Shown here piece by piece: positions 3,479-60,335 of a DNA stretch of 64,000 bases. The stretch is taken from positions 1 to 64,000 of the forward strand of contig JAFTFY010000015.1 of the NCBI GenBank assembly GCA_017458185.1, given 5' to 3'. A model generated the notes under the pieces. The model was not told the origin of the DNA, did not search any database, and worked only from the letters and a program-made list of their open reading frames with translations. The translations under genes were made by a program, and so were the position numbers. Each line of letters opens with the position of its first letter. The first letter of the stretch is position 1. This stretch comes from Neisseriaceae bacterium (GTDB taxonomy: Bacteria; Pseudomonadota; Gammaproteobacteria; Burkholderiales; Neisseriaceae).

Positions 3479-3538
3479 GGTGGGCAGGAATGCCCACCCT
3501 ATAAGGTTTATGTCGTTGCGGTGGGTTGAAAACCCACC
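3479..3538. repeat. Two GGTGGG...CCCACC hairpins, possible dsbC terminator
   Basis: The first hairpin is 3479-3498 (GGTGGGCA, loop GGAA, TGCCCACC). The second is 3520-3538 (GGTGGGTT, loop GAA, AACCCACC). Outer stem bases are conserved, while the inner two base pairs differ but stay complementary. They lie just past the dsbC stop and could terminate it, though no U-run follows. Confidence 0.65.
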
Positions 3539-9486: not shown

Positions 9487-9543
9487 ATTTTGACGCAGTC
9501 AAAATCTTTATTTGCAAAGCAAATAAAGGATTGCGAAGCAATC
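9487..9543. repeat. Array of three abutting perfect palindromes
   Basis: 9487-9505 is ATTTTGAC, loop GCA, GTCAAAAT. 9506-9528 is CTTTATTTGC, loop AAA, and its complement. 9529-9543 is GATTGC, loop GAA, GCAATC. They touch end to end without spacers, share no stem sequence, and each closes a three-base loop with C-G. The array lies just after a DUS. Confidence 0.8.
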
Positions 9544-17668: not shown

Positions 17669-17750
17669 GTTGATACGAAGTATCAACCTTTGATAAACGC
17701 AGTTTATCAAAGAAGATGACGAAGTCATCAAACCGAACAAAGGCGAAGCC
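17669..17750. repeat. Array of GNA-loop palindromes
   Basis: 17669-17687 is GTTGATAC, GAA, GTATCAAC. 17688-17712 is an 11-bp stem CTTTGATAAAC around GCA. 17715-17729 is GATGAC, GAA, GTCATC. 17742-17750 is GGC, GAA, GCC. The first two abut exactly. Stem sequences are unrelated, but all loops are GNA closed by C-G. The array follows a DUS at 17645-17658. Confidence 0.8.
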
Positions 17751-21317: not shown

Positions 21318-21444
21318 GGTGGGTTTTCAACCCACCAACAACGCCGATAGGCGTTGCTTTTGGCATTTTCAGGCAGCCTGAACCATTTTCTAATCATCAT
21401 TCCATTCCGCCCTATCGGGCGGCTGGTGGGCTGGGAAGCCCACC
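21318..21444. repeat. Cluster of GGTGGG hairpins and GATA-loop palindromes
   Basis: 21318-21336 is GGTGGGTT, TTC, AACCCACC. 21339-21356 is CAACGCC, GATA, GGCGTTG. 21408-21421 is CGCCC, TATC, GGGCG. 21425-21444 is GGTGGGCT, GGGA, AGCCCACC. A DUS sits at about 21369-21382. The cluster fills the space downstream of mltG together with the half composite element. No gene is present in 21017-21463. Confidence 0.7.
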
Positions 21445-23541: not shown

Positions 23542-23629
23542 CAACGCCTTGCGGCGTTGCGGTGGGCAAGAATGCCCACCCTATACATTTCGTTCTGAAA
23601 ATGAACAGCGTGGGCAACAAGTTGCCCAC
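23542..23629. repeat. Three palindromes downstream of ahcY
   Basis: 23542-23559 is CAACGCC, TTGC, GGCGTTG. 23561-23580 is GGTGGGCA, AGAA, TGCCCACC. 23610-23629 is GTGGGCAAC, AA, GTTGCCCAC. They fill the gap between the lipoprotein gene start and the ahcY stop, so they may terminate ahcY. Confidence 0.75.
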
Positions 23630-28327: not shown

Positions 28328-28676
28328 GCAGTGAGCAATGAGCAGTGATTATGTCAATCCTGCGGATTGACGGATATTTTTTAGATAACGCTTCGACAGT
28401 TTTTCAGGCTGCCTGAAATGGTTTTTGTATTGCCGTTACAAAGCCTTGCGGCTTTGTGTTAATGACTGCGTCATTAACTGGATTGCCACGATTTGAACTT
28501 TCGTTCAAATCTCGCAATGACACAATCGGCTTGCAATGACACAGTTGTTTCGCAATGACACGGTTCTTTACTTTCAGGCTGCCTGAAAGATAAAATCGAA
28601 GCGTTATCTAATATAAAACAGTCAAGCCTGATAAGGCTTGACTTAATAACTGCTCACTGCCCACTGCTAACTGTTT
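28321..28676. repeat. Composite inverted repeat element with expanded centre (C)
   Basis: The left half is GCAGTGAGCAGTGAGC, hairpin 28353-28371 (GTCAATCC, TGC, GGATTGAC), AGATAACGCTTCGA (28383-28396) and a DUS. The right half is a DUS, AAAATCGAAGCGTTATCT (28592-28609), hairpin 28621-28642 (GTCAAGCCT, GATA, AGGCTTGAC) and CTGCTCACTGCCCACTGC. Between the two DUS copies lie about 170 bp of palindromes and cassette repeats. The element fills the whole gap between the convergent genes ispH and iscS. Confidence 0.8.
28438..28522. repeat. Three palindromes and a CATTGCGAG cassette inside element C
   Basis: 28438-28457 is ACAAAGCC, TTGC, GGCTTTGT. 28458-28478 is GTTAATGAC, TGC, GTCATTAAC, directly abutting the first. 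28490-28511 has the 9-bp stem GATTTGAAC with loop TTTC, framed by GGATTGCCAC and TCGCAATGACA. Confidence 0.8.
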
Positions 28677-30345: not shown

Positions 30346-30761
30346 TTGGTGTTCCTTTTTCGTTTGTATTTTCAGGCTGCCTGAAATGACATAGCCGTTG
30401 GCGATTTATCGCCTTACGGATAAGTCATTGCGAGCGTCCGCAGGACGCGTGGCAAGCCCCTTATCGTTTGGGTTGGTTAAACTTTTCAGGCTGCCTGAAA
30501 ATAAAATCCGTGTCATTGCGAGATTTTTCCGTAGGAAAAATCGTGGCAATCTAGTTCAAACCACAGGTTTGAACAAACGCCGATAGGCGTTTTAGTCGTT
30601 TTGCAAAAAGCCATTTAGGTAACTTTTAATCATTACGAATACTACCATTACAACGCCTTGCGGCGTTGGTAAAAAATCTAACGATTTTTTACTGGATTGC
30701 CACGCCGTGATAAATCACGGCTCGCAATGACACACAGTTTTAATTTAGGCTGCCTGAAAGA
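30346..30761. repeat. Palindrome array upstream of iscR
   Basis: Eight perfect palindromes are present: 30400-30413 (GGCGA), 30434-30448 (GCGTCC, GCA), 30522-30542 (GATTTTTCC, GTA), 30554-30574 (GTTCAAACC, ACA), 30575-30592 (AAACGCC, GATA), 30651-30668 (CAACGCC, TTGC), 30669-30692 (10-bp stem GTAAAAAATC, TAAC) and 30704-30721 (GCCGTGA, TAAA). Three of them sit in GTCATTGCGAG/CGTGGCAATC frames. DUS copies lie near 30371, 30484 and 30748. No gene is present. Confidence 0.85.
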
Positions 30762-41530: not shown

Positions 41531-41654
41531 TGTCATTGCGAGACTTGAACGAGAGTTCAAGTCGTGGCAATCTCCCAACTACGAAGAACACACCGAATGA
41601 TTACCGCCGTAGGGTGGGCTTGCCAGCCCACCGACAACGCCGATAGGCGTTGTC
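41531..41654. repeat. CATTGCGAG cassette plus two further palindromes
   Basis: TGTCATTGCGA and CGTGGCAATCTC frame the palindrome 41542-41563 (GACTTGAAC, GAGA, GTTCAAGTC). Downstream are 41613-41632 (GGTGGGCT, TGCC, AGCCCACC) and the abutting 41633-41654 (GACAACGCC, GATA, GGCGTTGTC). Confidence 0.8.
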
Positions 41655-41864
41655 GTTAAACAATTTCAGGCAACCTAAATCATTTTCTTTGATTATTTTA
41701 CACCGCTCTTATCGGCGTGGTTTGATAGGCTGGCAAGCCCACCCTACGACATTTCTGTTTTTGATTTGCGTTTTCAGGCAGCCTGAAAGACCGAAAAAGC
41801 TACATTCAGTTAAAATTAAGATTAAGTAAAAACAAGGCATTGCGATAAAATTCATCATCGTTTA

Positions 41865-48613: not shown

Positions 48614-48933
48614 TATTTTTCAGGCAGCCTGAAACCTTTGCAAAACTCAATCTAAAACAAAAAAGCGTCCGTTAAAGGGTGAGCAGGCTACCCACCAACA
48701 ACGCCGATAGGCGTTGATTACTCATTGTTTTTTATGAATATTTCTCCCTGTCGGGCGAATGGTGGGCTGGAAAGCCCACCCTATAACGATTGCATTTATT
48801 ATATGTAAAAATAGGTTTTGCAAAGCTTTCAGCCTGGAAGGAAATGAGCAGTGAGCAGTGAGAAAAGAGAAAAGAGAGAGTAACTTGTTGCCCATGCAGT
48901 ACAAAACGCTTTCAGGCTGCCTGAAAGTACAAA
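48614..48933. other. Repeat-filled gap between atpC and the adhesin gene
   Basis: No gene is seen. It holds a DUS near 48617-48633, palindromes at 48699-48716 (CAACGCC, GATA, GGCGTTG) and 48761-48780 (GGTGGGCT, GGAA, AGCCCACC), a fragment of the composite element tail (ATGAGCAGTGAGCAGTGAG, about 48844-48862), and a DUS near 48911-48926. Confidence 0.65.
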
Positions 48934-58010: not shown

Positions 58011-60335
58011 ATGAAACGGTTGGCGTTGTGGTGTGCGATGACGGCGGTGTCTTGTGTGGCTTGGGCTGATGATGATACGGCTCTTGGACAAAGTTCGCCT
58101 AATAAAACCGTTTCAGGCAGCCTGAATTTGGTTACAGAAAACAATCAAACAACGGTTGCGGATAATTCAAATAGTTTGCCATCGAAAAACAATACAACGA
58201 CACCTGCGGTGTCGGCGGTGGGCTGGGAAGCCCACCCTACGGCGGTTACGGAAAGCGATAAAACGCTTGCAAAAACGAATAATGCGACAACTACGGCGGT
58301 TCGGAATAATCAAACAGCGGTTTTGGCTGATAATCAACACCTTTCAGGCAGCCTGAAAAATAATCAGTCAAATAATGCTCAACGAGCAGAAAATACAACA
58401 CATACTCATTTCAATCATTCAAACAGTTCGCAAGCGGATAGTGAAAAAATTTCAGGCAGCCTGAAAGATAATCAAGCAGATAATGAAGCAGTTTATCCTT
58501 ACAAAAGTTCAGGTAGCCTAAACATAGTCAATAATCAAAACACAGCGACAGGGGCGAATAATGAAACTGTTTCAGGCAGCCTGAAAGGTAATCAGGCAAA
58601 CAATCAGCCCAGAACTCGCCGTGTGCCGAAAGATAATTATCAGTTAAATTTATCCGTCAGTGGCGATGAAAGCGATTTGACCACAAACAATAAATTAGCC
58701 GACTTATTAAAAGAACATTTGTCGCTCTACAACCGCCAGAAAACACCCAATATGGACGCAGACCAAATTGCGTTTTTGGTGCAGGAAACAGCCAGCGAAG
58801 TGGCTCAAATTGTGGCTACCGAAGGTTTTTTTAATAGCCAAACCGAAGTAGTGGAAAACGGCAATCAATATACGATAAAGGTGAATTTAGGCAAACGCAC
58901 AAGGGTTGATAATGTGATTTTGGTGTTAGACGGTGCGGTGTTGGAAGATAATGAGTTGCCCTTGTTTTACCGTCAGTTATTAGGCGAATGGGCTTTGCCA
59001 ATGGGCGAGCCCTTTCGTCAGGAAGACTGGGCAGACAGTAAGTCGGCGGCTTTGTCGGGCGTGCAACGCCGTAAATATCCATTAGCCAAAATCACGGAAA
59101 GTTCTGCCAAAATCAATAAAGAAAATAATACGGCAGAATTAACCGTCATTATCGACAGCAAACCGATTGTTTATTTTGGCGATATTTCCATTGACGGCAT
59201 CAAACGCTACCCTGAATCCATTCCCCGTAATCTTGCTCCGTTTTCTCGTGGAGCAGTGTATGACTTTGATAAATTAGCCGATTATCAGGAATATTTGGAG
59301 CAGGACGGACATTACGGCACAGTGGCAGCGTATGCAGATTTGGATAATGTGTCGGAAGATTATTTTGTGCCTGTGAAAGTCAATTTAGTGGAAGTGCCCC
59401 GCCAAAAGGTTGATGTGGGCTTGCAGTATGATACATTAGACGGCGTGGGTACGCGTTTGGGCTACACGCATTACAATATGTTCAAACGGGGTTATACGGG
59501 TTCGGCAGTGTTGTCGGCAAATCGTTATGAGCAGTCGTTAGGTTTGGGTATTGCTCAACCCAGAGACGATAAAGGGCATTTTTATACTTCATCTATTAAC
59601 TTCAAAAACAAAGAGTTACAAGGTGTTGAAACCAAAACGCTTGCCACTGGTTTGTGGAAAGCACGGGTGCGAAATAATATTGATTCACGCATGGGCGTGG
59701 AATATTATTTGGAAGACGCACGCATTAAAGGCGGCGAAAAATTAGGCACGAGTTATGCGACTATGCTGACGGCTTCGTGGAAAAGCAACCGCATTCGCAC
59801 CAAAGAACGCCCTGCAAATGGTTGGTATTTTTCGGGCAAAGTGGGTTCAACGCTGGGCACGGCGTTATCTACGGCAAATGTGCAACGCATTACAGCGGAC
59901 GCAGCGTATTATTTTACGCCTGAACAAAAAAAATACGGCACTTTTATTGCCAAAGGCGGCGTGGGGTATGTGCATACGGATAATCAGGCGAAAGTGCCCA
60001 GCGAATTGCTGTTTCGCATAGGCGGTATGGACACGGTGCGGGGCTATGAAAATGAAAGTATCGGCATACCAGGTGAGAATGGCAGCGTTTTGGGCGGCAC
60101 GGCAATGGCAAACTGGGGCTTGGAATATCAATATCCGATTTATAAAAACTTTGCGTTGGCGTTGTTTCATGACGCAGGCGATGTGAAAAATAAATTTCAG
60201 GATATGAAATTCAAACACGCCACAGGCACAGGCGTGCGTTGGTTCTCGCCCTTTGCACCGCTGTCGTTCGATATTGCCTACGCCCACGATACGCAAAAAA
60301 TTGCGTGGTATGTGATGTTGGGGACAAGGTTTTAA
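58011..60335 (+). CDS. tamA: TamA outer-membrane translocation protein with repeat-built N-terminal extension
   Basis: The 774-residue BamA/TamA (Omp85) protein has a signal peptide (MKRLALWCAMTAVSCVAWA). Three POTRA domains lie at about 205-435, starting NYQLNLSVSGDESDL and including RTRVDNVILVLDG. A 16-strand barrel follows with GVGTRLGYTHYNMFKRGYTG, FRIGGMDTVRGYENESIG and the final strand AWYVMLGTRF. With TamB it inserts outer-membrane proteins. Residues about 20-205 are extra compared with the usual 580-615. This region is Asn/Thr-rich and made of SGSLK/SGSLN units read from DUS copies (58111, 58342, 58450, 58508, 58570), plus VGWEAHPT read from a GGTGGG hairpin (58217-58236). tamB follows 2 bp after the stop. 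Confidence 0.93.
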   Translation: MKRLALWCAMTAVSCVAWADDDTALGQSSPNKTVSGSLNLVTENNQTTVADNSNSLPSKNNTTTPAVSAVGWEAHPTAVTESDKTLAKTNNATTTAVRNNQTAVLADNQHLSGSLKNNQSNNAQRAENTTHTHFNHSNSSQADSEKISGSLKDNQADNEAVYPYKSSGSLNIVNNQNTATGANNETVSGSLKGNQANNQPRTRRVPKDNYQLNLSVSGDESDLTTNNKLADLLKEHLSLYNRQKTPNMDADQIAFLVQETASEVAQIVATEGFFNSQTEVVENGNQYTIKVNLGKRTRVDNVILVLDGAVLEDNELPLFYRQLLGEWALPMGEPFRQEDWADSKSAALSGVQRRKYPLAKITESSAKINKENNTAELTVIIDSKPIVYFGDISIDGIKRYPESIPRNLAPFSRGAVYDFDKLADYQEYLEQDGHYGTVAAYADLDNVSEDYFVPVKVNLVEVPRQKVDVGLQYDTLDGVGTRLGYTHYNMFKRGYTGSAVLSANRYEQSLGLGIAQPRDDKGHFYTSSINFKNKELQGVETKTLATGLWKARVRNNIDSRMGVEYYLEDARIKGGEKLGTSYATMLTASWKSNRIRTKERPANGWYFSGKVGSTLGTALSTANVQRITADAAYYFTPEQKKYGTFIAKGGVGYVHTDNQAKVPSELLFRIGGMDTVRGYENESIGIPGENGSVLGGTAMANWGLEYQYPIYKNFALALFHDAGDVKNKFQDMKFKHATGTGVRWFSPFAPLSFDIAYAHDTQKIAWYVMLGTRF
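58111..58586 (+). repeat. In-frame DUS and hairpin repeats inside tamA
   Basis: DUS copies TTTCAGGCAGCCTGAA begin near 58111, 58342, 58450 and 58570, with a variant (TCAGGTAGCCTAAA) at about 58509. All are read in the same frame as SGSL(K/N). The hairpin GGTGGGCT, GGGA, AGCCCACC lies at 58217-58236. Several units are followed by a codon string for xNQxxN, so the protein repeat is roughly SGSLKxNQxxN. Confidence 0.85.

Follow-up and report, generated by a model that had tools for sequence, protein, structure and literature searches.

The window, a 64,000-nucleotide stretch of a Neisseriaceae genome, carries upstream of iscR an array of eight perfect hairpins (30400-30413, 30434-30448, 30522-30542, 30554-30574, 30575-30592, 30651-30668, 30669-30692, and 30704-30721), all of them where the initial annotation had placed them and with two pairs in exact contact as it described (30554-30574 with 30575-30592, and 30651-30668 with 30669-30692). 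That annotation took the stems to be mutually unrelated and not to be copies of one repeat, neither of which holds: the hairpins at 30575-30592 and 30651-30668 are one AACGCC hairpin, and those at 30434-30448, 30522-30542, and 30704-30721 lie in copies of one frame, ATTGCGA-hairpin-GTGGCAA. We find that 30510-30733 is a single inverted-repeat (head-to-head) element of roughly 220 bases with the order TGTC-ATTGCGA-H1-GTGGCAATCNA-H2-H3-linker-H4-H5-TGGATTGCCAC-H6-TCGCAATGACA.

The element opens with a left REP on the forward strand (30511-30553), composed of the tag TGTC (30511-30514), ATTGCGA (30515-30521), hairpin H1 (GATTTTTCC-GTA-GGAAAAATC, 30522-30542), and GTGGCAATCTA (30543-30553). It closes with an inverted right REP on the reverse strand (30693-30732), in which TGGATTGCCAC (30693-30703) is followed by H6 (GCCGTGAT-AA-ATCACGGC, 30704-30721), TCGCAAT (30722-30728), and the tag GACA (30729-30732). 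Between them lie the variable slots H2 (GTTCAAACC-ACA-GGTTTGAAC, 30554-30574) and H5 (GTAAAAAATC-TAAC-GATTTTTTAC, 30669-30692), the slots H3 (AAACGCC-GATA-GGCGTTT, 30575-30592) and H4 (CAACGCC-TTGC-GGCGTTG, 30651-30668), both mostly of the AACGCC type, and a central linker (30593-30650) that can be aligned among copies. The predicted fold of this copy as single-stranded DNA has one long outer stem with side hairpins, reaching -69.2 kcal/mol for 30510-30737 (z -13.1; 0 of 200 shuffles as good). Rfam returns nothing in the window at gathering scores.

Left of the element, two copies of an 18-bp palindrome with a DNA uptake sequence (DUS) of the SimDUS dialect (TTTTCAGGCTGCCTGAAA, 30369-30386 and 30483-30500) enclose a 96-bp block (30387-30482). 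The block holds a single forward-strand CGTC-type REP (30423-30455: tag AGTC, ATTGCGA, hairpin GCGTCC-GCA-GGACGC at 30434-30448, and GTGGCAA) and, upstream of it, the hairpin GGCGAT-TT-ATCGCC (30400-30413), in whose slot related or other hairpins precede some other REP copies. G003, a relative from the same genus, lacks the block and has one DUS copy there, as if the DUS copies served as recombination borders (30369-30500). The DUS AGGCTGCCTGAA occurs 62 times in the window, on both strands, and its dialect, assigned from PMC10715097, suggests a place for the genome near Alysiella, Simonsiella, and Kingella oralis. Outside 62 of 106 frame copies a DUS is no more than 60 nt away, compared with 4 of 100 at 600 nt, which makes transformation and DUS-to-DUS recombination plausible routes of change.

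Similar arrays had also been claimed at four other places in the window. The one at 28438-28511 belongs to the right half of the same element, with three hairpins on the reverse strand (28438-28522). The array at 41542-41654 is one frame copy beside a GTAG-tagged repeat (41531-41655, forward strand: a single CGTC-type REP with H1 GACTTGAAC, then a GTAG-tagged REP at 41613-41632 and an AACGCC hairpin at 41632-41655), and the arrays at 9487-9543 and 17669-17729 belong to another frame family, also with variable hairpins.

The frame is abundant across the 2.13-Mb genome, where the pattern CATTGCGAG N(4-34) GTGGCAA has 109 forward and 103 reverse matches (212 in all; the reversed control has 0). 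Among the roughly 100 of these 212 copies that were listed, the cores differ and are mostly self-complementary, for example ATTTTTTC-GCA-GAAAAAAT, CCGTGAT-GAA-ATCACGG, and ACAGGAC-GAA-GTCCTGT. Detailed counts were made on the window and 40 further stretches of the same genome (843,744 bp, of which 142.6 kb are intergenic). With DUS hairpins set aside and a stem of at least 7 bp and a loop of 2-5 nt required, the 142.6 kb of intergenic DNA contain 740 hairpins, where dinucleotide shuffles give 71.9 +/- 7.6. Abutting pairs (within 2 nt, loops of 3-5 nt) number 104, and each of 10 shuffles has 0. Hairpin density and abutting, the two quantities that the initial annotation proposed to compare with shuffled DNA, are thus both far above it, and chance is rejected as an explanation. 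Of 614 loops of 3-4 nt, 555 have G or A as first letter and A as last letter on one strand or the other, a share that is about a third in shuffles. For H1, in the direction from tag to loop, 76 of the 103 stems have such a loop and 12 have its opposite.

Nineteen stretches in 844 kb are two-ended, and 14 of them, in an alignment read by eye, share the full architecture TGTC, ATTGCGA, H1, GTGGCAATCCA, H2, H3, linker, H4, H5, TGGATTGCCAC, H6, TCGCAAT, GACA; in the remaining five, which are shorter or differently built inside, the inner H2-H5 architecture is incomplete. Linkers align among the 14 copies while H1, H2, H5, and H6 differ. One set of stems supplies H1 and H6 and another supplies H2 and H5, and H3 and H4 are mostly of the AACGCC type. 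A stricter pattern yields 17 complete dimers, none of which has an identical core at both ends; the first seven core letters are common to both ends in 1 of the 17, compared with 2.65 expected at random.

What is kept within a copy is pairing. Of 106 H1 stems, 91 are perfect, 12 have one mismatch, 2 have two mismatches, and 1 is unfoldable. Among the 75 distinct cores of this genome, 59 pair perfectly over the five outer pairs, compared with 17% when arms are taken from different copies, which bears out the earlier proposal that self-complementarity and not stem sequence is conserved. The same holds in G064, a genome of another genus, in which 19 of 30 cores pair perfectly among the copies listed (6% across copies); small sets from other genomes show weak pairing or are too small to be informative, with 1 of 4 (G127), 2 of 4 (G257), 6 of 6 (G202), 0 of 6 (G434), and 1 of 2 (G162) perfect. 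Stems vary even within a closely related subfamily of eight copies (L135, L143, L145, L151, L155, L161, L163, and L172), in which the 275-347 bp that follow H1 on the right have 87-97% identity in the listed pairs, and H1 itself takes five stems (GACAGGAC, GCCGTGAT, GCCGAGAC, GCCGAAAC, and GCCGTCT); GCCGAGAC and GCCGAAAC are one pair apart. An estimate with DNA energy parameters gave no demonstration of better folding by the tag strand than by its complement: the tag strand is better in 25 of 72 cores and equal in 35 of 72.

We distinguish five frame families (A-E), all of them with hairpin slots that hold several stems: the CGTC frame (A), a hairpin beside AAGCGTTATCT (B), two hairpins between CACACGGATT and AATCCGTGTG (C), GTAG-GGTGGG...CCCACC, often with a second hairpin (D), and the family of the arrays at 9487 and 17669 (E). 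Slots of different frames have stems in common: seven loop-proximal 7-mers are shared, compared with 0.56 expected from column shuffles (0 of 1,000 as high), such as TTTTGCC in the H2 slot of A (23 copies) and in B (10), and GAATTGC in the H2 slot of A (7) and in C (6). Within the CGTC frame, 48 copies with H1 and H2 about 11 bp apart carry 20 and 19 stems, respectively, in 37 combinations, with a mutual information of 2.10 (1.96 +/- 0.10 shuffled; 155 of 2,000 shuffles as high). Neighboring H1 and H2 are thus almost unlinked, which is weak evidence for exchange, as fast stem change would erase linkage too.

We compared orthologous sites in G003 and in a second relative of the genus, G001, counting only slots placed no more than 6 bases apart. 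This left out 2 duplicates and 12 rows (6 same, 6 different) whose offset was larger, and the slot patterns capture some hairpins only. Of 36 orthologous slots within aligned blocks, 29 keep their stem (2 of them with a one-arm mismatch) and 7 differ, the split being 16 same and 3 different in G001 and 13 same and 4 different in G003. At the seven changed slots, 2-4 pairs differ in both arms, counted from the nearer matching end (7 pairs at L196 if the loop is set one pair further in), and none differs by a single pair; the blocks that hold them are 4-13% diverged, and at 6 of the 7 the relative's stem is present in the pool of that slot in our genome. Three changed loci have matching flanks on both sides. 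At L210/L220 the stem is GTCAAGCC against GTTTTGCC, with the frame and the unique DNA to its right matching; at L196/L222 it is GTTTTGCC against GTCAAGCC; and in the window the family B hairpin GTCAATCC (28353-28371) faces TCGTTTTGCC in G001 (L175). At this last locus H1, the outer hairpin, is identical letter for letter in G001, and by eye H2 and H3 of the nearby element (28438-28478) differ in both arms (GTTAAAACC against GTTAATGAC, and AAACGCC against ACAAAGCC). Elsewhere, L174/L227 has a unique DNA anchor on one side and L202/L014 matches on the left side only. At L227 our genome and G003 share GATTTTGCT where G001 has GATTTGAAC, next to near-identical DNA on the right. At L195/L151 it is G003 that stands apart from our genome and G001 alike, and the block concerned, about 87% identical, was probably imported whole. 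An apparent change at L187/L223 proved to be a mispairing of two neighboring copies.

At the window element itself, G003 (about 97% identical) keeps every stem and differs in one loop, and G001 has another element, of GTAG type (ATAG-tagged), at that site, a presence/absence difference between orthologous sites of the REPIN kind; no clean empty site was seen among the loci aligned. The initial annotation proposed to see whether whole palindromes change together between strains. Whole-stem changes in both arms occur, as above, and single-arm differences occur as well, in 9 of 35 (G001) and 5 of 41 (G003) orthologous hairpins, sets that include chance hairpins in coding DNA. None of these 76 hairpins was classed as having a single compensated pair, and the two single-pair compensations that we find both lie at one locus, L183/L137. 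These two, together with the two subfamily stems that are one pair apart, indicate that gradual change also happens; with the single-arm differences, the compensations show ordinary drift and slow compensation at work as well, a point against the reading that we favor below.

All 7 genomes of the genus have the exact frame, in 3 to 212 copies, as does G064 with 121; among the 83 genomes of the family, four more show a single match apiece, in which no hairpin is visible by eye. Hairpin density is 5.1 per kb in our genome, 4.5 in G001, and 5.7 in G003, the three sampled of the genus, 2.1 in G064, and 0.3 to 2.1 in nine genomes of other genera. Apart from those three of the genus, no sampled genome showed abutting pairs, the samples outside our own genome being small. 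A laxer frame, GTCATTGCGAG...GGCAATC, is found in 51 of 369 genomes of the class (our own included), from 42 of 272 genera. By eye its cores vary and are often self-complementary, and the highest count in a sampled genome from outside the family is 83 copies.

The closest published relatives are the CGTC-tagged REPs (Di Nocera et al. 2013, PMC3733652), described as including dRS3 of Neisseria, with an unpaired tag (CGTC, TGTC, or CCTC) on one side, a short unpaired tail that fits CCA, stems of 8-9 bp, and loops of 4-5 nt, as mostly forming head-to-head dimers apparently without a dedicated transposase, and as having stem and loop variants within a family. The initial annotation knew of no named element class that behaves this way, a view that is not supported, since the tag, the head-to-head pairing, and, in about half of the copies, the tail are close to what PMC3733652 describes. 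In 844 kb, the tag is TGTC in 74 and CGTC in 27 of 106 copies, the tail is CCA in 56, CTC in 26, and another sequence in 24, and tags lie outside in 20 of 28 neighbor pairs less than 400 bp apart. The A-T first and second stem pairs (ATTGC...GCAAT) are present as well, with the final T in 103 of 106, a feature that follows largely by construction, every letter of it but that T being demanded by the search frame ATTGCGA...GTGGCAA. The likeness extends to the CGTC/TGTC tag, the AT first pairs, the head-to-head dimers, and the stem and loop variants, and in about half of the copies to a CCA tail. Unlike those REPs, the frame has no continuous 8-9 bp stem; five outer pairs (ATTGC/GCAAT) and an internal loop (GA/GTG) carry an upper stem of 6-10 bp with dozens of sequences. 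Its loops are mostly 3-4 nt (3 nt in 59, 4 nt in 24, 5 nt in 13, 2 nt in 5, and 6 nt in 2 of the 103 stems with at most one mismatch), its spacer holds four more hairpins, and its stems differ at some orthologous sites. Because its loops are short, its upper stem varies, and an internal loop interrupts the stem, we file it as a variant outside the four published CGTC families.

Family D is a GTAG REP family (68 GTAG or ATAG ends among 73 hairpins, a hairpin tagged at both ends counting twice). Its repeats lie in the window at 3479-3538, 21318-21356, 23542-23629, 48699-48780, and 58198-58236, and a second hairpin adjoins four of the five. The genome's single Y1_Tnp match is a RAYT (NF047646, 170.5 bits against a cut-off of 80; G000:C13:10415-10948, which is L193 1354-1890, reverse strand) that is flanked on both sides by D repeats in inverted orientation (L193 1313-1351 and 1963-2001), an AACGCC hairpin accompanying each, and the RAYT with these repeats is a REPtron; a relative of it in G003, 70% identical, also lies between D repeats. 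A cognate RAYT flanked by its own REP is thus found for the GGTGGG repeats of family D and not for the CGTC frame. No CGTC frame is present in the 3-kb locus of our RAYT or beside that of G003, so that by the Y1_Tnp search the frame resembles the CGTC-tagged REPs in having no RAYT association. This RAYT was also considered as the mobilizer of the CGTC frame and was rejected: the only match to Y1_Tnp, the one family searched, is flanked by GTAG-GGTGGG repeats. No match to our RAYT was found in G064 (with its 121 frame copies), in G001 (85% complete), or in G005. The AACGCC hairpin sits both in the CGTC element and beside the GTAG REPs that flank the RAYT, which is a lead rather than a link; it is possible that this hairpin bridges the two REP superfamilies.

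Comparison with REPINs and their RAYTs (Bertels and Rainey 2011, PMC3116915) shows the same inverted REP pair with a folding spacer, for which compensatory changes are reported there, and family D adds a RAYT between inverted GTAG REPs. Unlike in those systems, the CGTC frame was found without a RAYT association, and its most variable part is the REP's own upper stem. In E. coli, where three REP types (y, z1, and z2) are described, PMC8266576 assigns the upper stem-loop a non-specific, structural role in TnpA-REP activity, names the tag, bulge, and lower-stem positions as those that matter, and adds that cleavage suffers when the otherwise perfect stem of a group 3 REP contains a mismatch. The frame has the same division into a constant tag, lower stem, and internal loop and a free upper stem, mostly perfect here, but its tag is CGTC/TGTC where that of E. 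coli is GTAG, and an enzyme corresponding to TnpA-REP would be putative. By analogy with GTAG REPs, cleavage at the tag in single-stranded DNA would be expected, although it is no published feature of CGTC REPs.

The element is thus of a known kind, a REPIN-like mobile repeat, and the unusual part is the diversity of its stems. Judging from these sequences, we lean slightly toward a reading in which two CGTC-tagged REPs stand head to head around a structured spacer, with tags and frames constant and an upper stem that is likely read by shape only: the stems would vary freely because the enzyme that spread the element probably reads their shape and not their letters. A single-strand enzyme, perhaps a RAYT-like HuH transposase, would read the tag, lower stem, and internal loop by sequence and the upper stem by shape. 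Dispersed copies would recombine or undergo gene conversion with one another, and this would be the main way in which stems change, both arms at once; copies, often beside a DUS, might be exchanged with imported DNA in a presumably transformable lineage. New stem sequences would arise more slowly, through point change and compensation. A further-reaching version, rather doubtful in our view, would have the hairpins of the genus be exchangeable cassettes that form a common pool for at least three frames differing in sequence, are replaced whole as stem-loops at fixed sites, and evolve as shape units independent of the frames. Their exchange would then be the work of a process aimed at hairpins, such as a HuH enzyme or gene conversion set off by hairpins, in a lineage without a recognized SbcD. 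SbcD, a subunit of the hairpin nuclease SbcCD, has no match over the cut-off in our genome, where sequence reading identifies the one weak match as a membrane-type metallophosphoesterase. Among the 83 genomes of Neisseriaceae no more than 5 have SbcD above its cut-off, none of them in this genus, so that loss of SbcCD, judged on SbcD alone, is permissive at most and not supported as the specific cause.

The competing account that we take most seriously, although it too is somewhat unlikely, involves no stem-level exchange: larger DUS-bounded blocks would be replaced by transformation, or another copy would insert independently at the same site. In its favor, the 96 bp at 30387-30482 are present or absent exactly between two 18-bp DUS copies and a larger DUS-bounded block (L159 16769-17582) is missing in G001; the block at L195, only about 87% identical, and the GTAG-type element of G001 at the window site fit as well. 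At L210/L220, L196/L222, and L175/window, however, both immediate flanks match around the changed hairpin. Mixing of repeat copies by short-read assembly might mimic such changes, and both relatives are draft assemblies, G001 in about 240 contigs and G003, listed with 7% contamination, in about 320; we regard this as highly improbable, given that stem diversity is found inside our own genome of 40 contigs, that at L210/L220 and L174/L227 unique DNA is no more than about 100 bases away from the hairpins, themselves about 20 bp long, and that the state at L227 is common to G003 and our genome.

Selection on transcribed RNA (terminators or RNase sites) would let stems drift pair by pair through compensation, in keeping with one-step neighbors in the pools, such as GTTTTGCC, GTTCTGCC, and GTCCTGCC, with the G.T pairs that make up 5 of the 12 single mismatches in H1, and with the two compensations at L183/L137. 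The hairpin at 30575-30592 is terminator-like, yet terminator-like sites are in no clear excess (3 against 1.5 +/- 1.1). This account is unlikely, as the 7 changed sites among 36 differ by 2-4 pairs and none by one in blocks 4-13% diverged, and the same stems recur across different repeat families. The fold-back templating suggested by the initial annotation, a quasipalindrome correction in which one arm is copied from the other during replication, would give perfect palindromes without selection, and has a precedent in the template-switch mutation at quasipalindromes described for E. coli (PMC7202029). Stems that are mostly perfect whatever their sequence, and the enriched G/A...A loops, would suit it. 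We consider it very unlikely: the independent change of single arms that was named as speaking against it is what G001 and G003 display, persisting at 14 of 76 orthologous hairpins, with no single compensated pair classed among the 76, and the two compensations lie elsewhere. Six of the seven changed sites, moreover, differ by stems from the genome's own pool, and the hairpins hold fixed frames and fixed places in the element.

REP families are commonly sorted by stem and loop sequence. Here the stem varies and the frame is kept, so that a search built on stems could break one family up into dozens or overlook it, as the initial annotation did. Should the shape of the stems be all that is read, and should copies trade them, the genus would be a natural experiment on what a REP enzyme has to recognize. 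The finding also bears on the old question of REP evolution by gene conversion, with which Higgins et al. (1988) are reportedly linked. Among the papers listed by literature searches, none was recognized as reporting stem exchange of this kind, those listed for the letters of the frame look unrelated, and PMC12306157 has nothing further on stem or spacer change. A reading by shape, if true, would reopen what mobilizes the CGTC REPs, which PMC3733652 describes as apparently lacking a dedicated transposase.

Two other groups of elements recall parts of the array. Organelle double-hairpin elements are short and mobile, with hairpins of differing stem sequence. They share with our element the differing stems and are unlike it in their organelle host, and they are not known to have tags or REP pairing. 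The Correia elements and MITEs of Neisseria have TA-bounded inverted repeats; Correia elements are not known to have swappable hairpin slots. A composite element of about 345 bp (subfamily "a"), with ends TATAGTCAAACAACTTCAAAAT and ATTTTGAAGTTGTTTGACTATA and a CGTC dimer inside, is present at L135, L137, L151, L155, L161, L163, and L172, and with its TATAGTCAAACAACTTCAAAAT ends presumably resembles a Correia-type TA-bounded element. At L159 16769-17582, in the block missing in G001, a sequence that we take to resemble a Correia element lies within a CGTC element, in a tandem duplicate with DUS borders.
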